This document shows positions 5,929 to 39,690 of a stretch of 46,684 nucleotides of DNA, piece after piece; within the stretch, counting starts at the first letter, position 1; every line of letters starts with the position of its first letter. The notes beneath the pieces were generated by a model, which saw nothing but the letters and a program-made list of their open reading frames with translations, was not told the origin of the DNA and searched no databases. This DNA is from a virus. Location: positions 1-46,684 of IMG/VR virus record IMGVR_UViG_3300043219_000162. One strand, 5' to 3'. The position numbers and the translations under genes were made by a program.

Positions 5929-7188
5929 TTAAGTGCTCATGTACAGCTTCTTGAGCGCCTCCGCTTGGATGACCTGTCCGCCAACCCGTTTCCGAGCGGA
6001 GAACTCAATCATGCCGGTTGCCTTGGAAGTGATCGGGTCCGCCATGGTTTCCATGACGATCCGGTCAAGGATGAGATACCCTCTCCGGAAGTCCCCGAAC
6101 ATGATGGGATAGGTACCGGAACTGATTGCAGGCATGTCCGGAGCCGTCCGATAGGGACGGTCCAGAATGGTCGGAGGCTCCGCTTCCCGGCGGATGCCCA
6201 CTGCCCACAGATAGTTGCCGTTGCCGTCCTTCAACTGCCGGATGGTCTTGAGAGTGCTCCGGTTCATCAACCACTGCGAGTTGTTGAGGTAAGCCTCCTT
6301 CAACTCATAGTAGAGAGCGATCAAAGCATCGGCGGAAAGAACCGTTGCATGACCGTTGTTGACCGCGCCAACATTGGCGTTAGACATCAAGCCCTGAGGC
6401 TGACCCGCGCCATTGCCGGAGACGAACCCGGTACCTTCCAAAACGCCGAACTGCTCCGCGAATTCCTCCCGAAGGAAGGATTCAATGTTGAAAACCGAAT
6501 CCTCCAACTCCTGCTTGGAGACCTTGGTCATGGCGTACATCTCATGACTCCGGAGTTGCTCCATGCCGAAGGAGGGATTGTCGGTCTCGGAACGGGTTCC
6601 GGTTTCCTCAACCCATGATGCCGAAGCAACACCCGTCCGCTTGGGGATCTGAACCTCGGTTCTGGAGGTCGTGCGGATGCGGGCCAACTGTCGAATGGGA
6701 GACCACTCAACTACATCCTTAATCATCTCCATGACGTACTCCGGAGGGGCAAGGTACCCGCCCGCAGTGTCATTGCCGAGGATGAGGGCTTTCTCCTCTT
6801 CCGGCGAAAGGATGCCGGTACCCTTGATTGCCTGAGGATCATACCCGGAGCGGAGGGCTTTGAAGAAAGCTTTCCTGCCGAGGGTTTCCTTATCCGCTTG
6901 TTTCTTGCCGTCCAAGAGTTCCTCTCCCTCACGGGCAAAGGAGGTCTCCATGTCGGCAATCTTTTTCTCCATGGCTTCCCGAGCGTCCTTTGCGGATTTC
7001 AACTCGTCCACAAAGGCAGAGATCTTCTCTTCCTTCGCAGCCATATCGCTGTTGATCTCCGTCAGCTTGGCTTCCATCTCTCCGGTTGCTTTGCCATACT
7101 TCTCAGCCTCGGCAACCGCCTTCTCAGAGAAGCCCTTGAACTCAACAAAGGACTCACTGAGCTTTTGCAGTTCCTGTTCAATGTTCAC
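5929..7188 (-). CDS. Major capsid protein (HK97 fold)
   Basis: 419 residues, GTG start (7186-7188) with GGAG 8 nt upstream. Residues 1 to about 105 form a long charged coiled-coil delta/scaffold domain, expected to be removed by the protease encoded upstream. The body has the family patterns 'NDTAGGYLAPPEY', 'IRQLARIRTTSRTEVQIP', 'WVEETGTRSETDNPSFG', 'TGFVSGNGAGQPQGLM', 'WLMNRSTLKTIRQLKDGNG' and 'MFGDFRRGYLILDR'. No separate scaffold gene is visible, consistent with the fused delta domain. Confidence 0.97.
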   Translation of the reverse strand: MNIEQELQKLSESFVEFKGFSEKAVAEAEKYGKATGEMEAKLTEINSDMAAKEEKISAFVDELKSAKDAREAMEKKIADMETSFAREGEELLDGKKQADKETLGRKAFFKALRSGYDPQAIKGTGILSPEEEKALILGNDTAGGYLAPPEYVMEMIKDVVEWSPIRQLARIRTTSRTEVQIPKRTGVASASWVEETGTRSETDNPSFGMEQLRSHEMYAMTKVSKQELEDSVFNIESFLREEFAEQFGVLEGTGFVSGNGAGQPQGLMSNANVGAVNNGHATVLSADALIALYYELKEAYLNNSQWLMNRSTLKTIRQLKDGNGNYLWAVGIRREAEPPTILDRPYRTAPDMPAISSGTYPIMFGDFRRGYLILDRIVMETMADPITSKATGMIEFSARKRVGGQVIQAEALKKLYMST

Positions 7189-10710: not shown

Positions 10711-11343
10711 TCAATCTGAGATCCAATCTCCGGCTCCCGGAGGAGCATACCGAGAGAACCTATCTTGTAGAAGAGCCAATGCCTCCTTCCGTGTCTTTGT
10801 TACCTCTCCTTGAGTACAGTCCAACTCCTCTGCAATAAGCCTCTCTGGAACATCTTCAAGGTAGAAGCGGACAAGGCAGAGTTTATGCTCGTCTGAGAGT
10901 TCCTCCTCCATGTAGCTAATTATCCGGAGGAACAATAGATGATTGGAAGTTTGCTCCTCAAAGTGGTCCGGAGCTTGAAGCATGAAGAAGCGGGAGGGGT
11001 CAACAACTTCATGTCTATTTTCATACGTTGTCTCTCTCGCCAAGAGGTCAAGCATCTCCCCTTTTATTCTTGGGTAGGCAAAGGTTGTGAGCTTTGTTCC
11101 TTCGTTCCTCCTCCACTTACTAAGAGCCTCAGAAAACCCTTTCAGCCCCGCGCCAATCAAATCTTGAAAGGTGATAGAGCCAACATTCCCTTTGAACATC
11201 TTCTTGGCCAACCCCTTTATCATTGGGTAGATATCGGCCTCCCCCTTGCCAGTGTCATAGACAAGGGAGTCAACCCGCGTAATAGAAACTTCTCCGGAGG
11301 TTCTCCGGAGTTGGCTTTGTTCCTGTGTCCGTTGAAGTTTCAA
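10711..11343 (-). CDS. Phage-encoded sigma factor, FliA/SigB-like sigma70 family
   Basis: 210 residues. Region 2 lies at about residues 55-105: 'ITFQDLIGAGLKGFSEAL' then 'LTTFAYPRIKGEMLDLLARE', matching the 'DLVQ.G..GL..A...FD...G..F.TYA.PRIRGEI' pattern of FliA, SigB and SigF. Region 4, with a helix-turn-helix, is near residues 155-200: 'ELSDEHKLCLVRFYLED' and 'LIAEELDCTQGEVTKTRKEAL'. Start is TTG (11341-11343) behind AAGGGA. It likely redirects host RNA polymerase to late phage promoters. The genome carries repeated CCG(T)ATNAT elements resembling a FliA -10 box, which may be its targets (inference). Confidence 0.85.
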   Translation of the reverse strand: MKLQRTQEQSQLRRTSGEVSITRVDSLVYDTGKGEADIYPMIKGLAKKMFKGNVGSITFQDLIGAGLKGFSEALSKWRRNEGTKLTTFAYPRIKGEMLDLLARETTYENRHEVVDPSRFFMLQAPDHFEEQTSNHLLFLRIISYMEEELSDEHKLCLVRFYLEDVPERLIAEELDCTQGEVTKTRKEALALLQDRFSRYAPPGAGDWISD

Positions 11344-12857: not shown

Positions 12858-13808
12858 TCAGACCTTGGGATGCCCAACTGTCAGATACTCTCCTCTAAAG
12901 TCCCCGGTTTCATGGACTTTGATGTCCGGCAGGAGTTCCGGACAGAGAGGATACATACAACGGAAGAGGCGGACAGCAAGCCGCCGGATTTCAGGTTCGG
13001 CAAAGAGGGAGCCCCGCATATTGAAGAAATGCCGCCATGCTCGAATATTTGCCGTTACCGCAATCGGAGCCTCTGTCTCATTGGGGAGGACTGCCCTTGC
13101 AACTTGGTTGAGAGCTTTCCTCACATCCGTCCTTGACATCCCCGCCGCATCCGGATTGAGTTGCTTGAGGAGGGGAAGAAACTCTTGGGCAACTTCGGAG
13201 TATTCATCCCTTGCCGCATTGATCCGTTTCCGGAACCGGGTATCCAATCCCTCACTCAGGAGGAACTCCGGACGCTGAACAAATCGGAGCTTGGTTCCAT
13301 CAACGTATCGTTGGGAAACCTGAGAAAAAGCAAACCCCGCCCGATGTCTCACCAACTCATGAGTCAAGCTCCGGCTGATGCCGTAGAACAAGAATGAGAA
13401 GTTGGGATGCTCCATAACGGACCCATGTCCGGAATCCAAAATGTTCCGGAAGTATTTCGCCCGTTCTGCATTCTTGGTCCGCCTCTCACCGAAGGACAGA
13501 TAGCAGAGTTGCCCGGTTGCCTTGACAAGAGCCTCTGCCGGAGGAATGGACCAATCATCCTGAGAGTAGAAAGTTTCTGGGAGATAGTCCGCCCCATCCT
13601 CCCCTTCATCGGGAGTAACAAAATCATCAAAGTCCCAGAGGAATCCTCCCGCCCACAGGTTCTCAATTCCTCCTGCATCGGGTTTGCAGAGAGTCGCAAT
13701 CCCCGGCTCTCTGAGGTACTTTGTTCCTAACAGGGTTGTATAGGTTTCAACATCCCAGCGGGGAAATTCCCCAAGAATGAGTTGGCTTGATCTGTTTTCT
13801 TCAATCAA
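12858..13808 (-). CDS. thyX: FAD-dependent thymidylate synthase ThyX
   Basis: 316 residues. It would make dTMP from dUMP with methylene-tetrahydrofolate, NADPH and FAD. The core has 'GHGSVMEH', the ThyX motif starting at RHR (residues 154-156) and ending 'SQRYV', and a C-terminal 'NIRAWRHFFNMR' with the conserved Arg/His residues. Two points are unusual: an N-terminal extension of roughly 85 residues before the core, and eight instead of seven residues between RHR and the Ser of SQRY. The start overlaps the previous stop as ATGA. It is the last gene before a strong terminator. Confidence 0.93.
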   Translation of the reverse strand: MIEENRSSQLILGEFPRWDVETYTTLLGTKYLREPGIATLCKPDAGGIENLWAGGFLWDFDDFVTPDEGEDGADYLPETFYSQDDWSIPPAEALVKATGQLCYLSFGERRTKNAERAKYFRNILDSGHGSVMEHPNFSFLFYGISRSLTHELVRHRAGFAFSQVSQRYVDGTKLRFVQRPEFLLSEGLDTRFRKRINAARDEYSEVAQEFLPLLKQLNPDAAGMSRTDVRKALNQVARAVLPNETEAPIAVTANIRAWRHFFNMRGSLFAEPEIRRLAVRLFRCMYPLCPELLPDIKVHETGDFRGEYLTVGHPKV

Positions 13809-20348: not shown

Positions 20349-21182
20349 CTAGACCTTGCCTGCCGTGAGGATCTCATTGGCAGCTTTGAAAATCCTTTGC
20401 GCTGACTTCTCCGGAATGTCCTTGCCGCCCCTCAACCAATTTTGGATGTATCCCCGGCTCTCTTCAGAACCCTCCAACCCAAGAGCCTCAGAAACTATCA
20501 GAGCCGTTGTCTCTGCCTCAACCTCCCGAATGTTACGCGGAGTGGCATTGCCGGACAGGACATCAGTGAGCCTCTCCTCAGTGTGTCCCAAGACCACATG
20601 AGCCAACTCATGCAAAGCAATCCGGGTCTGATGCGGATGCAGCGGGTTAACGGAGATGGTCCGCTTGTAGGCATACCCTCCGGTATTCCCATCAGGCATA
20701 TTGAAGGATTCCTCCGAGATGTTGAGACCCGTGAGAGCCTTGCTCCTGTCCCATCCGGGAACTTCCTCCGGCTCAACTTCCTTGCCGTCCGTCTGAGACA
20801 TCACAAACCAACGGGAAGGATAGATGAACTGGGAGAACTGGACCTTGGTTTTCTCCGGCTTACCATCGGCTCCCATGACCACAGAGCCGGACTCATCCGT
20901 CTTGTCAACTGTGAAGGTCCGCTTGACGGGTTGGCAGAGAGTGATTGCCTTCTGCCCCTTCATGACAAACCGCCCCTTTTCCTTCCAAGCTTTGAACGTC
21001 CCGATTGGTCCCGGCTCAATGCCCTTGGCTGAACACTGCCAGAGAGCAAGCATCTGATTTCCGATGCTGTAATTGTGGAACATCTGGAAAGCTTTGGAGA
21101 TCGTACCCGGCACGTTGACTGCATCCTCAAGGATCTGCTGCCACGTTGCGGGAGCCGTTTGGGTTTTGGTTTTGTCTGTCAT
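20349..21182 (-). CDS. ArdC-like antirestriction / ssDNA-binding protein with zinc protease motif
   Basis: 277 residues. The N-terminal domain (residues 10-125) matches ArdC/DUF1738: 'SIGNQMLALWQC', 'FKAWKEKGRFVMKGQKAI'. The C-terminal domain has a metalloprotease motif HELAHVVLGH (residues 191-200) with a later 'EVEAETTALIVSEALGL' Glu. Related plasmid proteins protect incoming DNA against restriction. It has its own class 1 promoter and a proper GAAGGAG leader, so it is likely expressed early to shield phage DNA. Whether it cleaves protein is unknown. Confidence 0.87.
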   Translation of the reverse strand: MTDKTKTQTAPATWQQILEDAVNVPGTISKAFQMFHNYSIGNQMLALWQCSAKGIEPGPIGTFKAWKEKGRFVMKGQKAITLCQPVKRTFTVDKTDESGSVVMGADGKPEKTKVQFSQFIYPSRWFVMSQTDGKEVEPEEVPGWDRSKALTGLNISEESFNMPDGNTGGYAYKRTISVNPLHPHQTRIALHELAHVVLGHTEERLTDVLSGNATPRNIREVEAETTALIVSEALGLEGSEESRGYIQNWLRGGKDIPEKSAQRIFKAANEILTAGKV

Positions 21183-24231: not shown

Positions 24232-24479
24232 TCCTCTCCTTCCCTGTCCAGATTGATAGTTGTGTCCGGGAAGCGGTCAACAATCTCCGGGTTAATCACA
24301 ATTTCAAAGTGGTCCGGCTCAAGGAGGAAGGCTCCATCCTTGGTCCTTCCAATGCCCTTGAACTTGATGGAGAATTGAAAATCATACTTCTCCCTCCATC
24401 GTTCAATGAGAGCATCCAAGATCCCCCAAAAATACTGCTTGGGAGAGAGCTTCTTGAAAAATCGGTTGAAGATCTTCAT
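24228..24479 (-). CDS. Unknown small protein
   Basis: 83 residues. Basic N-terminus 'MKIFNRFFKKLSPKQYFWG', then strands 'FQFSIKFKGIGRTKDGAF'. ATGA overlaps on both sides couple it to the methyltransferase fusion and the MazG-like gene. Function unknown. Confidence 0.68.
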   Translation of the reverse strand: MKIFNRFFKKLSPKQYFWGILDALIERWREKYDFQFSIKFKGIGRTKDGAFLLEPDHFEIVINPEIVDRFPDTTINLDREGEE

Positions 24480-25438
24480 GCCGTGATTTCCTCCTCCTTA
24501 GCCATCAGAGCCTCAGTAGATCCGTCAACGATTGCTTGGGCAATCGTGTCCTCTGGATTCGCAACCGGAGTAAAAGCAGTATCCCCGATCTTGTACACAA
24601 AGATAGTCCGCTTGCGGTTGTCATGCTCGATAACTTCAACCGTCGCGGGCTTCCATCCTTCCATGGAGAAATCCAGAGAGACAACCCGGCTTCCCGGCTT
24701 GAGCTTCTGCTCAAAGATGGGCCTGAGGATTGCGTTGCTCTCCTGCAAGAGATACACAAACACAACGTCTATACCCGGCAGGAGATCAAAAGTTTCATTG
24801 GAGAGGATGTCCTGTTGGAGGATATCCGCCTTGGCCCGGTACTTGGAGGTCTTGATGAGATCCCTTGCCATCCCAACCCGGCTGTCATGCTTCTCAACCC
24901 CGATTGCCTTAGCGCAGATTTTCGCTGCCTTGTGGACTGTCCGGCCATCCCCGCAACCCAGATCTAGGAAGGACTCGCCAACCGCCAACTCAGCAAGCTC
25001 AAGGGCTTTGTCAATCAGTTCCGGAGGGGTTGGGACATACGGAGCCAACGCGCCCTTGTCAAGGTCTGCATTGGTCATGAGCCGGAGCATGATAGAAAGA
25101 GCTTCCCGGAATTGGTGGATGTAGAGGTACGCTCCAACCTGCTCAACCGTGAGGGCAGGATCTTCATGAACAAGACAAGCCCAAAAGAACAGCCTCATAT
25201 CGTGGACGGACTGCCCTTGGAATTCCCCCTTCATCGGGTTCTTCCCGGTTTTCTTTTTGATGAGGGTCATCGCGTTGAAATCCCAAATCAGGGTACGCGG
25301 TTTATCCAACTGAACCTCAACAATCCGTTGTTCCTCCGGCTTGTCCTTGGACCCCATCTTTGGGATTGGAACCATGGGCATGGCCCGCTCATCAATTTCA
25401 ATCTCAGGAGTTTCCTCCGGTACTGTCTTCTCACTCAT
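24476..25438 (-). CDS. Tail-chaperone-like domain fused to class I methyltransferase
   Basis: 320 residues, ATG 25438 behind ATAGGAGAC. Residues about 35-120 look like a tail assembly chaperone domain: 'WDFNAMTLIKKKTGKNPMKG', 'DMRLFFWACLVHEDPALTVEQVGAYL'. Residues about 130-290 are a class I SAM methyltransferase: 'FLDLGCGDGRTV' (SAM loop), 'AIGVEKH', 'IDVVFVYLLQESNAILRP' and 'LKPGSRVVSLDFSMEGWKP', as in the DOT1-like/CFA-like bacterial methyltransferases. The reading frame is continuous. The target is unknown. It is far from the real tail chaperone pair at 237-1072, yet its N-terminal domain resembles that protein. Confidence 0.82.
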   Translation of the reverse strand: MSEKTVPEETPEIEIDERAMPMVPIPKMGSKDKPEEQRIVEVQLDKPRTLIWDFNAMTLIKKKTGKNPMKGEFQGQSVHDMRLFFWACLVHEDPALTVEQVGAYLYIHQFREALSIMLRLMTNADLDKGALAPYVPTPPELIDKALELAELAVGESFLDLGCGDGRTVHKAAKICAKAIGVEKHDSRVGMARDLIKTSKYRAKADILQQDILSNETFDLLPGIDVVFVYLLQESNAILRPIFEQKLKPGSRVVSLDFSMEGWKPATVEVIEHDNRKRTIFVYKIGDTAFTPVANPEDTIAQAIVDGSTEALMAKEEEITA

Positions 25439-26059: not shown

Positions 26060-26842
26060 CTATGCCTCAGTGTGAATGTACAAAGCTCCCTTGGGGAGGA
26101 GTCTGTTGTCTCCATCTCCAATCTTGAGAGTCTCATTGTCTCTCAGTTCCCGGCAGGGGCAAGGGAGTTCCGGGTAATCCTCTCCCGTTGGTTCAACGGG
26201 GACATCAGAATACCAACAAATCTTGAGCCCCTCCGGACGGTTCTCAACGTTCCACTCTCCGGGAGATCCCCGGCCATGAGTCTTCTGAATTTCCAGCAAC
26301 CGCCCAACGTTGAAAGTTGCGAGTTTGCCAAAACGGGGTCTGACAAGGAACAGCCTCCGGGTCTCCGTGTTGGGATAGAAGACACTATGAGGAGGATCAT
26401 GCTTTTCCTCCTCAACCATGAATTGCTTGTTGAGACCAACCGCCTCCTCAAGTTCTACTTTAATTCGGTTGGCGTTGTCCCGAGTGCTGAGCCGCCATGA
26501 ATCAACGTCTGAAATCCTCTCCCCATCTTCGCCAACGTAGCAAGCCGCTGTTGGGAATGGTTGCCACTTGGGGTAAGAGTACAAACCGGGAAGGTTGACA
26601 TTTGCGGCAAGCTCATTGGTGATGAGCAACTCTGCCATTTTGGGTTGACCGTCAAGCCCTATGGTGGGGTATCGAATCTTGTATGCTGCCTGAGGTCTTG
26701 TAAGATCGGCATGAGGATCATACCAACGTTTGACCCACTTCCACTCCAGTCTGAAGTTGCTGAGCAATCCCGGATTGGCTTTCAAAAGACTCTGCCGGTT
26801 GTGCATCGGGAAAAGTCTGAGATGCGTTGTCATGTCTCGCAA
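26060..26842 (-). CDS. Unknown protein, paralogue of 38752-39690
   Basis: 260 residues, TTG start (26842) with an ideal AGGAGG 7 nt upstream. It aligns with the 312-residue protein at 38752-39690: '(L/V)ITN...A..V..PGLY.YP', 'RR(L/I)' then 'NVGR(L/M)', 'G.PG.(W/F)', and 'P.(P/E)..CR(E/D)L'. Two copies 12 kb apart with moderate divergence suggest an old duplication. Function unknown. A class 2 element at 26860-26869 precedes it. Confidence 0.75.
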   Translation of the reverse strand: MRDMTTHLRLFPMHNRQSLLKANPGLLSNFRLEWKWVKRWYDPHADLTRPQAAYKIRYPTIGLDGQPKMAELLITNELAANVNLPGLYSYPKWQPFPTAACYVGEDGERISDVDSWRLSTRDNANRIKVELEEAVGLNKQFMVEEEKHDPPHSVFYPNTETRRLFLVRPRFGKLATFNVGRLLEIQKTHGRGSPGEWNVENRPEGLKICWYSDVPVEPTGEDYPELPCPCRELRDNETLKIGDGDNRLLPKGALYIHTEA

Positions 26843-29076: not shown

Positions 29077-30120
29077 TCAGTTGATGACCTCTCCACTGCC
29101 CTTGGGTAGCATCTCCGGATTGATACCGAGACTCCCGCCCTCATTGACAATTTGCTCAATGAGGCAAAGCATGGTTGCCCCTTCCTCAATGCTCATTTGA
29201 TTCTGTACTTCCTCCTTGGCTCTCAGGAGGAACTTCTTCTTGAGATCCTCGGCAACAAGGTCTGAGTCAGGTCTCCTAGAAATTTCCTCCCCCCATCTCT
29301 CGGGAGCAAACTTGGAGAGGAGCCAACGGACATCCATTCCAAACTTGATGCCGTTCATGAGCAGTCCCAAGAGCCGGTACTCCCGCCACTCAGAGGCAGT
29401 GATGAAGGAGCGGACCATTGCTCCACAAATACTATCCGGATTTTCTGCGCCGTCAAGGAACCACTTCCGGGCCATGCCGGGATCAATCCCGAGCATTGCC
29501 AAAGCTCCGTCCGGAGGCTTGCCATGTTCAATGACTTTGCAGGCAGTCCGGATGAGAGCCTCTGATGGTTCGGAGTCCCGATCAATCGGACCCTTGAGAT
29601 GGAGAGCCACATAATCAAACTTATCGGGGACAATGAGAGAGTCCATGTCCTGAAAGAAATAGACTCCGGAGATGAGATCTTTCTCACTGCGAACAACCCC
29701 ATGAGGTTCAATCATCGGGTAATTGTTGGAGAGAAGATCTCCGGGTTTCTTAGCAGCGGACTTGGAAGACTTCCTCCTCCTCACTGCTTTCTTTGCGGGA
29801 GGTTTGGTTGCTGCTTTCTTTGCGGGAGGTTTGGTTGGTGGTTTCTTTGCGGGAGGTTTGGTTGGTGGTTTCCTTGTGGGCTTCTTGAAGGCAGGCTTTC
29901 GTTTACCTCTGGCAGAACTGGAAACAGGTTTGCCCATCCTCTTCTGTGCCGTCTTCTTGGCAACTGGTTTCTTTGCAACCGCCTTCTTTGGTGATGCTTT
30001 CTTGGCAACCCGTTTCCCCCGCTTCTTTGGTGGGACAGTTGCAGTCCCCTTGGGAGCAATTCTCTTGACAGGCTTCCTGCCTTTGGTGGTCGCGGTTCTT
30101 TTCCTTGCCGTGGTTGCCAT
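29077..30120 (-). CDS. Small-terminase-like protein with histone H1-like N-terminal tail
   Basis: 347 residues. Residues 1 to about 130 are Lys/Ala/Pro-rich like histone H1 tails, with a nine-residue KPPTKPPAK unit in three copies. From about 135 on is a globular domain: 'SEALIRTACKVIEHG', a helix-turn-helix-like 'ALAMLGIDPGMARKWFLDGAE', 'SEWREYRLLGLLMNGIKFGMDVRWLLSKFAPERWG'-type helices (key residues W, D, W and the ending PERWG). That ending and the HTH resemble phage small terminase-like DNA-binding proteins. It could bind the packaging site or condense DNA. It lies 16 kb from the large terminase, which is unusual. No ribosome site; overlaps the previous frame. Confidence 0.72.
   Translation of the reverse strand: MATTARKRTATTKGRKPVKRIAPKGTATVPPKKRGKRVAKKASPKKAVAKKPVAKKTAQKRMGKPVSSSARGKRKPAFKKPTRKPPTKPPAKKPPTKPPAKKAATKPPAKKAVRRRKSSKSAAKKPGDLLSNNYPMIEPHGVVRSEKDLISGVYFFQDMDSLIVPDKFDYVALHLKGPIDRDSEPSEALIRTACKVIEHGKPPDGALAMLGIDPGMARKWFLDGAENPDSICGAMVRSFITASEWREYRLLGLLMNGIKFGMDVRWLLSKFAPERWGEEISRRPDSDLVAEDLKKKFLLRAKEEVQNQMSIEEGATMLCLIEQIVNEGGSLGINPEMLPKGSGEVIN
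29786..29872 (-). repeat. 27-bp tandem repeat, three copies
   Basis: The unit TTTGCGGGAGGTTTGGTTG (19 nt of 27) recurs with starts near 29792, 29819 and 29846. It encodes the KPPTKPPAK units of the H1-like tail. Such repeats can change copy number by slippage. Confidence 0.8.
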
Positions 30121-33416: not shown

Positions 33417-33787
33417 GGTTGGATTATACGGGAGGAGGTAGCAATGTTGATGTACACCTTGAGACCAAGTTGAGTGGCAAGCTCTATCATTGAAAAGGTT
33501 CCGGATGATTTGCCATCCCATGCAAAGCAGGCTCCGTCCGCATAGAGTGCCATCCGTTTGTTGCGGATGAGTCCGGCTCTCTTGCCGTCTCTGTCCCAGT
33601 TGGCGGGGAAGTTCCGGACAGGTATCCCCCGCCCCTTGGCAATCTGCCTGCCCATGATGTCAACCCCTTGAGCGCAACCGCAGACAACCTCTGTGATGAG
33701 TCCGTATTGGTCCTCGAAAGACTTCCAAGACTCCAACACGAAACATGCACTCTTGATGATCCGGCTCCCTGCAATGATGACTTTCAT
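33395..33787 (-). CDS. SLOG / YspA-like (DUF2493) nucleotide-binding protein
   Basis: 130 residues from ATG 33787, which overlaps the upstream stop as ATGA. Rossmann-like SLOG pattern: 'MKVIIAGSR', 'VVCGCAQGVD', 'FPANWDRDGKRAGLIRNKRMA', 'AFAWDG' (here 'CFAWDGKSSGT') and 'MIELATQLGL'. SLOG proteins bind nucleotides or their derivatives, and some sense signals in phage-defence conflicts. Role in this phage is unknown. The upstream partner is a small membrane protein. Confidence 0.85.
   Translation of the reverse strand: MKVIIAGSRIIKSACFVLESWKSFEDQYGLITEVVCGCAQGVDIMGRQIAKGRGIPVRNFPANWDRDGKRAGLIRNKRMALYADGACFAWDGKSSGTFSMIELATQLGLKVYINIATSSRIIQPWNLRAR
33422..33431 (-). promoter_or_regulatory. Class 2 promoter-like element CCGTATAATC
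   Basis: CTCCCGTATAATCCAACCATG: a perfect TATAAT ends 6 nt before the 33416 ATG, within the coding sequence of the SLOG gene. Confidence 0.5.
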
Positions 33788-33957
33788 GGGGAAGACTTGA
33801 AACAGAATTTGGCGAGATCCTCGGCAACTTGCATGATGACAAACCATCCGAGAACAACAACCCAAAGAGCAATTACCTTGTCCCGAGAAGACAAGACCCG
33901 GAGAAGATAGAAAATGGACACGCCCACAAAAACCCCGATCAAAAGAAACTCTCCCAT
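33784..33957 (-). CDS. 57-residue two-helix membrane protein, holin-like
   Basis: ATG 33957 behind TAGGAGGA. Two hydrophobic segments (residues 3-21 'EFLLIGVFVGVSIFYLL' and 29-45 'IALWVVVLGWFVIMQV') around a short basic loop, then a short polar tail. Size and topology fit a small class II holin. It is not next to the endolysin but is coupled to the SLOG gene by ATGA, so a membrane-effector role with SLOG is an alternative. Confidence 0.7.
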   Translation of the reverse strand: MGEFLLIGVFVGVSIFYLLRVLSSRDKVIALWVVVLGWFVIMQVAEDLAKFCFKSSP

Positions 33958-33966
33958 AAATTCCTC

Positions 33967-36402
33967 CTATGATGCTCCTCTTGGTTTACTGGTACCGCAA
34001 GAGCCACAAGCAGTCTTGGTTTTGGAGTAGTTCCGGGCATGGCAGGATGGACACTCCCAATGCTGAGCAGAGCAGTTGGGACAAAGAGAAGTCTTCCCCG
34101 GCACTGTCTGGAGACACTGGGAGCAAACATAGTCCGCCCCGGAGGGATGCCGGAACATGGTCCTCTTTGGATAAGCACTTGGACCAAATACGTCTTGGAA
34201 GTTTGGGGAGGAACTCATCCTCCCGGTCACTGTTCCAACAGGAGAAGAAGGAGGAACTTTCCAATCATCATCATCAATGTAGTCCCCATCCTCCCCAACA
34301 TCAGCCGTGTTGTTGATGAAGTTCCGGGAGTTGTCTGCAAGGTTGTAATGGCAGACCGTGCAAGTCTGCTCTTTGACTCCCTCAAGATAGCCGCAAGATT
34401 CACACTTCTGGACTCCGCAGTCTCCGCACTGATTGAATGCTCCGGGGATTCTGAGACCACAGGAGCAAGTCCACTCCCCTTTGTACTTGAGCCGGACTGC
34501 GTTCCTCTGTGTTCCGCAACCCAAACAACCCGCAAGATGGAGACCTAGACCGCTCCCACAGTGGAGACACTGCCAAGAATTCCCCACAAGGTTCCTCCCG
34601 CAATTGTTGCAGGAGCCTTGAGTGCCGGAGCAGTTGGTATTGCAGTCCGGACATGTCCAATAGTTCTTTCTGGAAGAACAGTTGACGCACTTGAAAACGT
34701 TGTAAGGGTTGTGAGTCTCTCCGCAAGCTCCACAAGTCCACACATCTGAGGAAGGAGGTCTTATCTTATTGCACTTGCAGTTTATGCAGAAACGGGAGGT
34801 ATCTGCATTGGCCTGTCCACAGTCCGGGCAATTCCAAGTAACCTCATCCGGAGGAGTTGCAGGAGGAGGAGAAGGGAGAGGGGTTGGCTCAACCCAATCC
34901 GGATCTTTTCTGTGTTGGTTGCAACGGAAATCAGAGGAGACCCTGAGGTATGCTGTCTCTCCGTCCGCAAGGAGAGGAAGATGGAGGGAGGCAAAAAGTT
35001 CCTCCCCCAAGTGTTCTGCCCAACTAGCAAGGGATAAGCCGCCGCAAATGCCAACCCGCTCCCCCTCAGCATCCTGAAGAGGCTTGAAGAACTCGCAAGA
35101 GTCACATGTACCTTCAAAAGTCTTGAGCCGGTCTTTAAGATCGGTAGTGTGACCCTCCAACGCCTTTCTCATGTCCTTGAGGAGTTGGAGTTCATGAGCC
35201 AACTTGGAGTTGGCTTCTGCTTGGAAGATTAAGAACTCCTGCTTGAGACCGCTGTACCTTTGCTCCCAAGAGCCGGTAGTCTTCTCAATCCCGGCAAAAG
35301 TCTGAGCCGCTGCAATGTCCTCCTGAATCTTCTTCATAGCAACATCAAACTCTTGCGTTGCCATTGCTGCCTTGACTGCATCCGCTCCGAGAGTTCCAAG
35401 AGCCGTGGAAATCGACAACCCAAGCTGCTTGCTGATGGTCTTGATCTTCTGCCGGAAGTCATTCATCCCCTTGACGTTGATGGTCAAATCGGGCATCTTC
35501 GGCACATTGGGGCTTCTTCGCTTGGGGATGTCCTCTGCCATAGATCTATTATCCTCCTCCTCCCCTTCAGATGCAAGAGGCAATCCAAGACCATCACTGT
35601 GCTTCTCCACAAGGGCAGCTTCAAAAGGCATGATTGATCCGTCCGTCTTCTTCAGGTAGCCAATAGAAATGGACTTATCAAAGCCCAAGTCCATGGCTCT
35701 GGAGAGCTTGGTCTTTTGGATGTCCGTCATGGTGGCAGGATCAAATTCCAATTCAACCTCATGAAGAGCGGAGTTGACATCAACAACCGCCTTCACTGTT
35801 GCCTGTCCATCCGGGTCCGGGCCTTGCAGGTAGGTACTCTTAGGCCAATCAGAAGTTTCTCCGGGAGTGACCATGGTGATACTTTTCAGTTTCCCGATAG
35901 GAACCCCATTCAAGGTCACCGGCAAATCTTGCTTGGGAGGAAGTTTAACAATGGGATGAACCCCATCAGAGGTTGTTGTGTAGCCGAACTCTGCCGCCTC
36001 AAGCTCTTCCGTGGTCCATTCCCCGGAGAGAGGATCTCCAACATAACCCGCAATCTCCGGCATCTCCCCCGTCTCTTGGTACGTTCTGGAAATGAGCTTG
36101 TCAACCTCCTCCTGAGTGAATGGTTGGAGGAAGGATTTCTTGTTGAGAGGTTTGGGAGGTTTGGGAGGTTCAGATAAGTCAACAAAATTGTTGATGTGTC
36201 CATGGAAGAATGAGTTTGGATGCAGAGTGTCAAGGTCATCCACTGAAATCCTGTTCCTCCTGAGTGAGCCGATAAGACCATGGAACTCCGTATTGGTCAT
36301 CTCGGTACCATCGGGCAGATAGACCTTCTTGGGAGATGGAGGAGGAGTGGTTGCCCCTCCTGCTATCTTCTCCCATGCAATCCACTCAGGAGGAAAGCTC
36401 AT
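33967..36402 (-). CDS. Large multi-zinc-ribbon protein
   Basis: 811 residues. Residues 1 to about 290: Pro-rich start, helix, and a beta domain ('LPVTLNGVPIGKLKSITMVTPG'). About 295-430: helical, probably coiled coil ('LAHELQLLKDMRKALEGHTTD'). About 435-500: a Cys site 'CDSCEFFKP...GICGG...FRCNQH'. About 520-700 and 755-811: eight C-x2-C...C-x2-C ribbons, several starting with W-x-C (WNCPDC, WTCGAC, YWTCPDC, WQCLHC, WECPSC), like tandem RanBP2-type fingers. One ribbon has C-x-C (WTCSC). Such arrays bind RNA or proteins in cellular organisms. Function in the phage is unknown. Confidence 0.8.
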   Translation of the reverse strand: MSFPPEWIAWEKIAGGATTPPPSPKKVYLPDGTEMTNTEFHGLIGSLRRNRISVDDLDTLHPNSFFHGHINNFVDLSEPPKPPKPLNKKSFLQPFTQEEVDKLISRTYQETGEMPEIAGYVGDPLSGEWTTEELEAAEFGYTTTSDGVHPIVKLPPKQDLPVTLNGVPIGKLKSITMVTPGETSDWPKSTYLQGPDPDGQATVKAVVDVNSALHEVELEFDPATMTDIQKTKLSRAMDLGFDKSISIGYLKKTDGSIMPFEAALVEKHSDGLGLPLASEGEEEDNRSMAEDIPKRRSPNVPKMPDLTINVKGMNDFRQKIKTISKQLGLSISTALGTLGADAVKAAMATQEFDVAMKKIQEDIAAAQTFAGIEKTTGSWEQRYSGLKQEFLIFQAEANSKLAHELQLLKDMRKALEGHTTDLKDRLKTFEGTCDSCEFFKPLQDAEGERVGICGGLSLASWAEHLGEELFASLHLPLLADGETAYLRVSSDFRCNQHRKDPDWVEPTPLPSPPPATPPDEVTWNCPDCGQANADTSRFCINCKCNKIRPPSSDVWTCGACGETHNPYNVFKCVNCSSRKNYWTCPDCNTNCSGTQGSCNNCGRNLVGNSWQCLHCGSGLGLHLAGCLGCGTQRNAVRLKYKGEWTCSCGLRIPGAFNQCGDCGVQKCESCGYLEGVKEQTCTVCHYNLADNSRNFINNTADVGEDGDYIDDDDWKVPPSSPVGTVTGRMSSSPNFQDVFGPSAYPKRTMFRHPSGADYVCSQCLQTVPGKTSLCPNCSAQHWECPSCHARNYSKTKTACGSCGTSKPRGAS

Positions 36403-36410
36403 TGCTTCTA

Positions 36411-36782
36411 CTACTCCCGTTCTCTGTTGGCAGCTTTGACAGGAGACCCGGAGGCAAGGTCAACCTTGAGACCGCCCAAGTCCGCTGTCTCTTCCGTCTT
36501 CTTCTGAAGCAAGTATGCCTGCTCCTGAGACCACTCTTCTGCCTCCTCTTGAGTGGCAGAGGAGTAGTCATAGAGGCAGTGCATCCCCTCCCATTTCTCC
36601 TTGCCATCCTGAGAACAAAACCCAATAAAGGAGCCTGTGTCTTTCTTTGTCACTTTCCAAAATTTCATATCAATCCTCTTTCCATGTGGTTTGAAAAACG
36701 GGCAAAGGAGGTCTGCCCCTTCGCCCTCTGGGAAACAGTCATCAAGCCCATCAGTGCAAAGTCTGCAAGGGAGGCAACTCAT
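36411..36782 (-). CDS. Small Cys-rich protein
   Basis: 123 residues. 'CLPCRLCTDGLDDCFPEGEGADLLC' within the first 30 residues gives five Cys for a metal site; a helix with many Glu follows. ATGA overlap with the upstream gene. Function unknown. Confidence 0.68.
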   Translation of the reverse strand: MSCLPCRLCTDGLDDCFPEGEGADLLCPFFKPHGKRIDMKFWKVTKKDTGSFIGFCSQDGKEKWEGMHCLYDYSSATQEEAEEWSQEQAYLLQKKTEETADLGGLKVDLASGSPVKAANRERE

Positions 36783-37297
36783 CCTCCAATTTCCCCCGGC
36801 ATTAGACCTGTGAATTCTTCCTCCTGTGCCGGAGGAACCTCCTCATAAGAGAGAGGCTGAACCCCTCCCGGCCATTTCATGTTACGGAGTCTTGCGTCCA
36901 TGTCATCCTCTGTCTCCGGGACAAGATGCATGAGTAGACACATTCCGATGAACAAGCTCCGGGCAACACGCCTTGTATCCCCGTCCGAATGCTTGTAAGC
37001 CACAACTTCAAGACCGTGCATCAAGTGGGAATAAAAATGCTGAGAACAGAACTCAAGCTCCCTTGCCAATGGACCCTTCTCTTGAAGAGGAGGAACATCC
37101 CCAGTGGCAGTCATGAACTCATGAGCATTGTGAGGGTTGCCGGGGATGAGTACAAGACCCCTCAGCCACCTTTGAACTTTCTTGATCTCCGGGCATCTGT
37201 GAGTGTCCGGACCCCGGAGGCTCAGAAGAAGAGTTGACTGCATCCGAATTGGGATGCCACTCAACCAAGGTTGGACAACTGATATTGGTGGATACAT
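36779..37297 (-). CDS. Unknown conserved-looking phage protein
   Basis: 172 residues from ATG 37297, 6 nt after a CCGTATAATC element. 'VVQPWLSGIPIRMQSTLLLSLRGPDTH', 'IKKVQRWLRGLVLIPGNP', 'ELEFCSQHFYSHLMHGLEVVAYKH' and 'LHLVPETEDDMDARLR'-like end. The His/Cys-rich helices and 'RGPDTHRCPEIKKV' seem conserved in unrelated phages as far as I remember, but I know no function. Confidence 0.72.
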   Translation of the reverse strand: MYPPISVVQPWLSGIPIRMQSTLLLSLRGPDTHRCPEIKKVQRWLRGLVLIPGNPHNAHEFMTATGDVPPLQEKGPLARELEFCSQHFYSHLMHGLEVVAYKHSDGDTRRVARSLFIGMCLLMHLVPETEDDMDARLRNMKWPGGVQPLSYEEVPPAQEEEFTGLMPGEIGG

Positions 37298-37302
37298 GAT
37301 GA

Positions 37303-37312
37303 GATTATACGG
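37303..37312 (-). promoter_or_regulatory. Class 2 promoter-like element CCGTATAATC
   Basis: GTCCGTATAATCTCATCATG: a perfect TATAAT ends 6 nt before the 37297 ATG. It overlaps the TAA stop of the upstream gene. Confidence 0.5.
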
Positions 37313-37703
37313 ACTTCTTTCCCCAAGACATGATGCCGGGAGGAACCGGGAACTCTTGAGCAGACCACATCCGGCAACCAAAGTCCTTTGCTGTGATGAG
37401 AGAGGTTTGGAGATGAGGCTTGCTTTCATCCGTCAAATCCAACGGGACAATGAGAGCAAAGCTTTCTTCCTCCTCAAGCTCCTCAGACCCCTTCTGCCCA
37501 ACGTAAGGCTTCAAGGCATTGCAGAGCCCAAGCCCGGTCAACTTGTTCCAGTGCTCACAGTCCTCACAGAAGCCTCCAGGGATGAGCTTCAGTGGTTCCT
37601 CCCCAAGTGTTAGTTCCTCCCACTTCTTGCGGATGACCGTTGGAGAAATGAATCCAATGGTCTCACCGTTGAATAGAAGCCGGAGGAACTTTGGAGTATT
37701 CAT
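37305..37703 (-). CDS. Unknown protein with Cys4 site
   Basis: 132 residues from ATG 37703, which overlaps the upstream stop as TAATG. A 'CEDCEHWNKLTGLGLCNALKP' cluster and a later 'DFGCRMW' give four Cys spaced as in several other proteins of this phage. The N-terminal part 'FLRLLFNGETIGFISP' is strand-rich. Function unknown. Confidence 0.7.
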   Translation of the reverse strand: MNTPKFLRLLFNGETIGFISPTVIRKKWEELTLGEEPLKLIPGGFCEDCEHWNKLTGLGLCNALKPYVGQKGSEELEEEESFALIVPLDLTDESKPHLQTSLITAKDFGCRMWSAQEFPVPPGIMSWGKKSV

Positions 37704-38751: not shown

Positions 38752-39690
38752 CTATTCAACGATGATGCCGATTCTCTCGGCAACCACCTTGAGGAGGTTC
38801 CAAATCTTCTCACTGAAGTCCCCTCCTCCCGGTTCTCCTCCTCCCGGTTCAATGATCTGAACAGAGCCATTGACATCAAACGGTGACCGCTTGACGAGCT
38901 TCTCATCCGCTGCCAAGTCCCGGCAAGGGATGGGAACCTCTGGGAGAGTCTCCGTTGGGTCTTGGAGGTCAAGGTCTGATACCCAGACGATTGAGTCTTC
39001 TCCTCGGAGAATGAAATGCCCCGGAGCACCAACCCCGTCCCGGTTCATCTTGCCGAACATCCGGCCAACATTGAGCCGAGATGCAGGTTTGCCCTGAAGA
39101 GCAAGGCTCCAAATCCGCCGTCCTTCCTTGAAGTTGTTCTCCGGGACTTCCGTGTCCGTTATTCCATAGACGTATCGGAAGATCATCCCGTCCAATGAAT
39201 CCTCTGAGATGTACCAGTCCTTTCCGGGAAGGTCTTCCCGGATCTTGGCATAGAGGGCTTCGGCTTGCGGGAAGTAAGACAACCGGGTTGCCGGGATCAG
39301 TCCGGTTGCGTTGCCATCCGGGCCTTGAACGAAAGCCCTTGTTGGCATGACCACGTACTCCGGATAATCGTACAAACCGGGGATGCTGACTTGGCAGGCT
39401 TGCCGGTTGGTAATCACCATGGTCCGGAGGACAGGAGGGTCCGATGCCCGATCAAGGTACTTGAACATATAGACATCATCAGGAGGAAGTGTTGCCGCCG
39501 CTGAGTCCCACCAATATTTCACGGTAGATGCGGAGAGGTTGAACGGAGGGGCTTGGCTCCCGAATCGGAGGGCATACAGCTTGCGGGTATACCTGATGAA
39601 GACTTGGAGGAACTGAGTTCCAAAGAACTCTTGCCCCTCCGGTCTTGGCTTCTCTTCTCGGATGGAGAGAGGGAGTGTTTGTGTTCCCAT
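38752..39690 (-). CDS. Unknown protein, paralogue of 26060-26842
   Basis: 312 residues from ATG 39690 behind AAAGGAGC. Shares with 26060-26842: 'VITNRQACQVSIPGLYDYPE', 'RRIWSLALQGKPASRLNVGRM', 'GVGAPGHFI' and 'VPIPCRDLAADEKLVK'. It carries an extra C-terminal piece with 'GGGEPGGGDFSEKIWNLLKVV'. Its longer body is mainly beta. Function unknown. Confidence 0.76.
   Translation of the reverse strand: MGTQTLPLSIREEKPRPEGQEFFGTQFLQVFIRYTRKLYALRFGSQAPPFNLSASTVKYWWDSAAATLPPDDVYMFKYLDRASDPPVLRTMVITNRQACQVSIPGLYDYPEYVVMPTRAFVQGPDGNATGLIPATRLSYFPQAEALYAKIREDLPGKDWYISEDSLDGMIFRYVYGITDTEVPENNFKEGRRIWSLALQGKPASRLNVGRMFGKMNRDGVGAPGHFILRGEDSIVWVSDLDLQDPTETLPEVPIPCRDLAADEKLVKRSPFDVNGSVQIIEPGGGEPGGGDFSEKIWNLLKVVAERIGIIVE

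Follow-up and report, generated by a model that had tools for sequence, protein, structure and literature searches.

Genomic setting of P0001

The window analysed here is the whole 46,684-nucleotide stretch of the IMG/VR virus record IMGVR_UViG_3300043219_000162, and it is an incomplete tailed phage. Profiles identify terminase and portal genes and a head-tail adaptor; the head block lies at 5.9-12.7 kb. The gene at 5929-7188 is capsid-like by position and sequence, and at the low end of the contig lies a truncated one that resembles a tape measure. The terminase is ~50% like that of Methanobacterium phage psiM2 and 45% like those of Gordonia phages, and relatives of the genome are spread over Cytobacillus, Planctomycetaceae and Bacteroides. 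The terminase of a 5 kb viral contig (L002) is 99% identical to the one in the window, which points to a near-identical phage in another record. Directly upstream of the terminase is a gene for a ThyX-type thymidylate synthase (12858-13808, minus strand), and between terminase and portal lies one for a sigma-70-like factor with regions 2 and 4 (10711-11223, minus strand), which suggests that the host is a bacterium.

Our subject is an 811-residue protein, P0001, encoded at 33967-36402 on the minus strand. The frame is open from an ATG that is preceded by a 4-base Shine-Dalgarno-like match, and the plus strand over the same interval is interrupted by stops; the extent and length given in the first-pass annotation are therefore right, with the minus strand as the coding one. 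Codon scores favor this frame across residues 1-445 and are low in all frames in the cysteine-rich parts, probably because the reference genes use few cysteine codons. P0001 belongs to a lengthy series of genes on one strand, with small and mostly unassigned neighbors. In the direction of transcription it precedes the terminase by ~21 kb, and its distance to the terminase, portal and capsid genes exceeds 20 kb. Its upstream neighbor, 8 bp away (36411-36782, minus strand), encodes 123 residues with a cysteine-rich N-terminus, and a small membrane-protein-like gene (33784-33957) starts 9 bp past the end of P0001. Rhizobium and Synechococcus phages carry relatives of the next gene upstream (36779-37429, minus strand); the one in Synechococcus phage Ssp-JY38 adjoins a helicase-like gene and lies near recombinase and RecB-type exonuclease genes, a context that would speak for involvement in takeover or nucleic-acid metabolism more than for a place in the virion.

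A cysteine array in the C-terminal third

P0001 has 38 cysteines, 34 of them in residues 516-811. Read by hand, the C-terminal third (residues 525-802) is made up of eight CxxC-x(10-12)-CxxC units, one with C-x-C. Residues 516-811 hold 15 CxxC knuckles, against a mean of 3.7 and a maximum of 10 in composition shuffles, and an automatic count finds seven CxxC...CxxC pairs in the tail where shuffles gave at most two in 2000; the eight Cys4 units noted at first pass are thus present. A tryptophan stands two residues ahead of the first cysteine in every unit except 6 and 7 (six of eight; binomial P ~5e-9, taken at the tryptophan frequency of the tail itself), which bears out the W-x-C starts that had been described for many of them.

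The first six units, all on the minus strand like the rest of the gene, are contiguous: unit 1 (Cys 525-542; 34777-34830), unit 2 (Cys 557-575; 34678-34734), unit 3 (Cys 584-601; 34600-34653), unit 4 (Cys 612-629; 34516-34569) and unit 5 (Cys 646-662; 34417-34467), each with a W-x-C start, and unit 6 (Cys 667-684; 34351-34404), without the tryptophan. Unit 5 has C-x-C as its first knuckle and is the ribbon that had been remarked on for its lost spacing. A 75-residue spacer follows, which includes a cysteine-free linker with an acidic stretch (residues 691-756; 34135-34332), and then come unit 7 (Cys 760-777; 34072-34125), with a Y-x-C start, and unit 8 (Cys 784-802; 33997-34053), with a W-x-C start and the best RanBP2 match of the eight. 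The asparagine found in RanBP2 fingers four residues after the second cysteine (C2+4) occurs in units 1 and 8 only. The units share 37-59% DNA identity, which argues against recent duplication or expansion, as the first-pass annotation had held.

The regions ahead of the array

Residues 1-155 (35938-36402, minus strand) are acidic and proline-rich and have no family match. Residues 156-290 (35533-35937, minus strand), previously read as a beta domain, have no family match above chance (best Pfam E 0.1, best PHROG E 0.24), and residues 300-430 (35113-35505, minus strand) form a segment that is helix-rich by composition, at 336-374 and 386-422, with weak, non-significant matches to helical families. 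Over residues 1-430 as a whole, searches of Pfam, NCBIfam, PHROGs and PDB sequences returned nothing convincing. What is left of the coiled coil and beta domain once assigned to this half is thus the helix-rich composition of the two stretches, with no family match.

Between this half and the array lies a separate cysteine site (residues 433-494; 34921-35106, minus strand) of the form CxxC...C...C(xxH). The earlier suggestion of such a site near 435-500 was correct, and its ligands would be Cys 433, 436, 453 and 494. It is not a ribbon of the array type and is weakly HPIP-like: Pfam HPIP_like (PF18524) matches it with E 0.0033 and 17.6 bits, where the cut-off is 28.1. The two share the CxxC start and the cysteine spacing, although the alignment is confined to the beginning of the site.

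Family matches and predicted structure of the ribbons

A ribbon profile was made from other viral contigs only (L094, L123, L144 and L181), with P0001 left out, and the control consisted of 300 shuffles of P0001 in which every cysteine was held fixed. With the HMMER composition correction off, P0001 scored 83.8 bits, while the shuffles (n=300) averaged 29.3 and peaked at 52.6. Part of this gain is due to tryptophan, since a W...C pattern had led to three of the four source proteins, and L181, the fourth, had come from a pattern with W before its second ribbon. The comparison shows that the array resembles ribbons, as far as sequence can tell, by more than its cysteine spacing alone. With bias correction every score was weak or negative, and the same profile gave P0001 -12.7 bits, with 1 of the 300 shuffles higher; this run is uninformative because it penalizes a cysteine-rich composition. 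Units 1, 2 and 8 match the profile best and units 5-7 weakly.

Among curated families, the Pfam double zinc ribbon (DZR, PF12773) matches units 7-8 with E 3.2e-5 and 24.4 bits, covering profile positions 1-45, and the whole of P0001 with 21.7 bits in five stretches, against a cut-off of 27.3. Pfam RanBP2 (PF00641) matches unit 8 with E 7.8e-5 and 22.3 bits, and a second PF00641 score reaches 17.7 bits, against a gathering cut-off of 27. The profile searches proposed at first pass therefore give pair-level DZR and RanBP2 matches, but no P0001 ribbon reaches a curated Pfam cut-off. A profile built from P0001 alone matched a mixture of short zinc ribbons among PDB sequences, including RPB12-class subunits (E 0.0025). 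Another profile (A3) also matched the ribosomal zinc ribbons eL40 and eL37; its PDB match to RanBP2 (E 1.2e-10) was set aside because A3 includes the RanBP2-like row L144.

AlphaFold modeling, the other check that had been suggested, succeeded in part. Modeled with no alignment, the array as a whole reached a pLDDT of 33 and that model was discarded, whereas units 7-8 with a 9-row ribbon alignment gave a ribbon-like model with a pLDDT of 75, one that is not independent of the RanBP2 assumption because the alignment contained RanBP2-like rows of other contigs. Over 27 residues, one modeled ribbon fits the fingers of Nup153 and RanBP2 at 0.9-1.1 A; its fit to the RNA-bound ZRANB2 finger (3g9y) is 1.7 A. 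Foldseek searches of the PDB with this model gave E values all above 0.04 (0.18 or worse for the Nup153/RanBP2 fingers), as is expected of a domain this small; the fold match to a BFVD "double zinc ribbon" protein (A0A8S5R4X7) had an E of 0.011. The model supports a predicted ribbon fold for units 7-8, without being proof for the others. Together, the sequence profiles and this modest-confidence model support a reading of the array as tandem RanBP2/double-zinc-ribbon-like modules, and we infer that the array binds zinc and that all eight units adopt the ribbon fold.

Relatives and related proteins

Neither the whole protein nor two fragments of it had a relative in IMG/VR; none was found in GTDB species genomes under the search run, by tblastn in INPHARED and PLSDB, or inside 38 records with related terminases. 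The peptide-pattern scans demand eight identical residues and distant relatives could escape them, so P0001 appears, under the searches run, to be an orphan in IMG/VR, GTDB genomes, INPHARED and PLSDB. The array gave four chance-level matches at E <=10, and nothing better, against 50,697 phage records.

A census was run with a DNA pattern for C-P-x-C-G...C-x2-C...W-x-C-x2-C, in which several residues and one cysteine codon were fixed; the pattern was tried first on the window itself. In 2.9 million viral contigs it found 25 loci, mostly not true tandem ribbons, and within the scope of this pattern none of the in-frame translations of the 25 had an array of more than two ribbons; the clearest true pair among them was L181. 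In a looser DNA census for W-ribbon pairs, the matches listed were mostly low-complexity repeats, many in wrong frames. The earlier statement that large arrays are rare in phages is consistent with this limited census, in which none exceeded two ribbons elsewhere. Two-ribbon viral proteins do exist (L094, of 369 aa; L123/L143, of 64 aa; L144; L181), and phage "double zinc ribbon" proteins are present in BFVD. In the frame of its ribbon match, L094 has an N-terminal part that looks metallopeptidase-like by eye, followed by two C-terminal RanBP2-like ribbons.

P0001 is unusual in the length of its array and not in the building blocks. L123/L143, L094, L144 and L181 share with it consecutive, mostly W-headed ribbons of identical spacing, but have only two ribbons and are unrelated beyond them. 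The double zinc ribbon family (PF12773; for example A0A8S5R4X7 of Siphoviridae sp. ctcMb1) has consecutive CxxC-x10-CxxC ribbons that resemble those of P0001 but number two, whereas P0001 joins eight to unrelated N-terminal regions and scores below 27.3 bits. RanBP2-type fingers (PF00641; Nup153, RanBP2/Nup358, ZRANB2) have the same short W-x-C-x2-C...C-x2-C ribbon in tandem arrays, and Nup358, like P0001, has many. Their consensus is C-x(2,4)-C-x10-C-x2-C (PMC7154859), and seven P0001 units fit this four-cysteine spacing, with 10-11 residues between the knuckles, unit 5 deviating with its C-x-C. P0001 differs from them in carrying the C2+4 asparagine in two of eight units, in scoring 22.3 against 27 bits, and in coming from a phage and not a eukaryote.

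Candidate functions

We favor, at about an even chance, a model in which P0001 acts outside the virion as a multivalent adaptor through eight RanBP2/DZR-type ribbons; its place outside the virion, its work as an adaptor and the class of ligand are all inferred. One chain would join an N-terminal half, a separate four-ligand cysteine site and eight small ribbons, each of which would bind one zinc ion and offer a small contact face. Arranged in series, the eight diverged ribbons could then add many weak contacts into strong binding of at least one macromolecule of the host or the phage, a protein being a likelier partner than a single-stranded nucleic acid; the most economical version is an adaptor for proteins or for mixed ligands.

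Surface residues decide whether a RanBP2 finger binds RNA, Ran or ubiquitin, and the main rival to the adaptor model, which we regard as unlikely, is that the array binds single-stranded RNA (or RNA and the ribosome) in the manner of ZRANB2. The RNA contacts of ZRANB2-type fingers comprise a stacking tryptophan, paired arginines in the loop after the second cysteine, and two asparagines for the third base; in tandem RanBP2 fingers affinity rises with finger number, a six-finger chimera reaching 24 nM (PMC6384913). Compared with these residues and with the ZRANB2 sequence, seven of the eight units lack the contact set. The exception in part is unit 8, the best RanBP2 match, with a net charge of +4, which keeps only N-Y-S-K, with the asparagine at C2+4; this is the N-W-x-R contact stretch in conservatively altered form. 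Unit 1 likewise carries the asparagine, and ribosomal ribbons are among those matched. Residues 516-690, however, have a net charge of only +2, and unit 6 has -2. The near-neutral charge and the absence of the contacts from seven of the eight units argue against a dedicated nucleic-acid array. Nor is a ubiquitin-like ligand, or Ran, expected if the host is bacterial, as the sigma-70-like gene suggests. The ligands proposed in the first-pass annotation (RNA, ubiquitin-like proteins or DNA) therefore find no specific support in the units.

A role as a transcription modulator, with ribbons that would attach to DNA or to the RNA polymerase of host or phage as those of polymerase subunits do, seems less probable again. 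It draws on the RPB12-class match and on the phage having its own sigma-70-like gene, but matches of this kind are generic among short zinc ribbons, and family profile searches of P0001 detected neither an HTH nor another DNA-binding family. We consider it quite improbable that P0001 is a structural protein of the tail or head with metal-stabilized modules: it is multi-domain and among the longest proteins of the contig, and another structural-type domain, the tail-chaperone-like one at 24476-25438, also lies outside the structural block, yet its close neighbors are small genes of no assigned function far from the head genes, and PHROGs, Pfam and PDB sequences yielded no structural-protein match, including the match to a known tail protein that had been named as contrary evidence. 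That the knuckles serve as a zinc or iron store or a redox buffer, as the cysteine count and the HPIP-like site might suggest, is very improbable given the W-headed units and ribbon residues beyond cysteine spacing, which indicate folded modules.

Tandem fingers of the RanBP2 class are best known from the eukaryotic proteins RanBP2/Nup358, Nup153 and ZRANB2. A phage protein with eight such fingers would mean that bacterial viruses build long zinc-ribbon arrays too, and P0001 would offer a compact system for asking what such arrays hold in a bacterial cell. There is a slim chance that P0001 stands for a phage family whose long diverged ribbon array serves as a multi-site scaffold, for example to recruit several host factors or coat phage transcripts, and that this scaffold is of a kind not described in bacterial viruses.

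Other genes of the contig

Several other genes of the window, all on the minus strand where a strand is given, deserve mention. The gene at 24476-25438 (minus strand) fuses a tail-assembly-chaperone-like domain (phrog_2115, E 6.9e-12) to a SAM methyltransferase domain that matches the Methyltransf_31 and DOT1 profiles; no INPHARED record matched both halves, and a second phrog_2115 gene lies about 23 kb away at 695-1072. The genes at 26060-26842 and 38752-39690 (both minus strand) are a paralogous pair, 29% identical, for which neither relatives nor synteny were found. The product of 29077-30120 (minus strand) has an A/K/P-rich, histone-H1-like N-terminus of ~110 residues ahead of an uncharacterized C-terminal region, and that of 20349-21182 (minus strand) combines an ArdC-like anti-restriction N-terminal domain with a zincin-like metallopeptidase.
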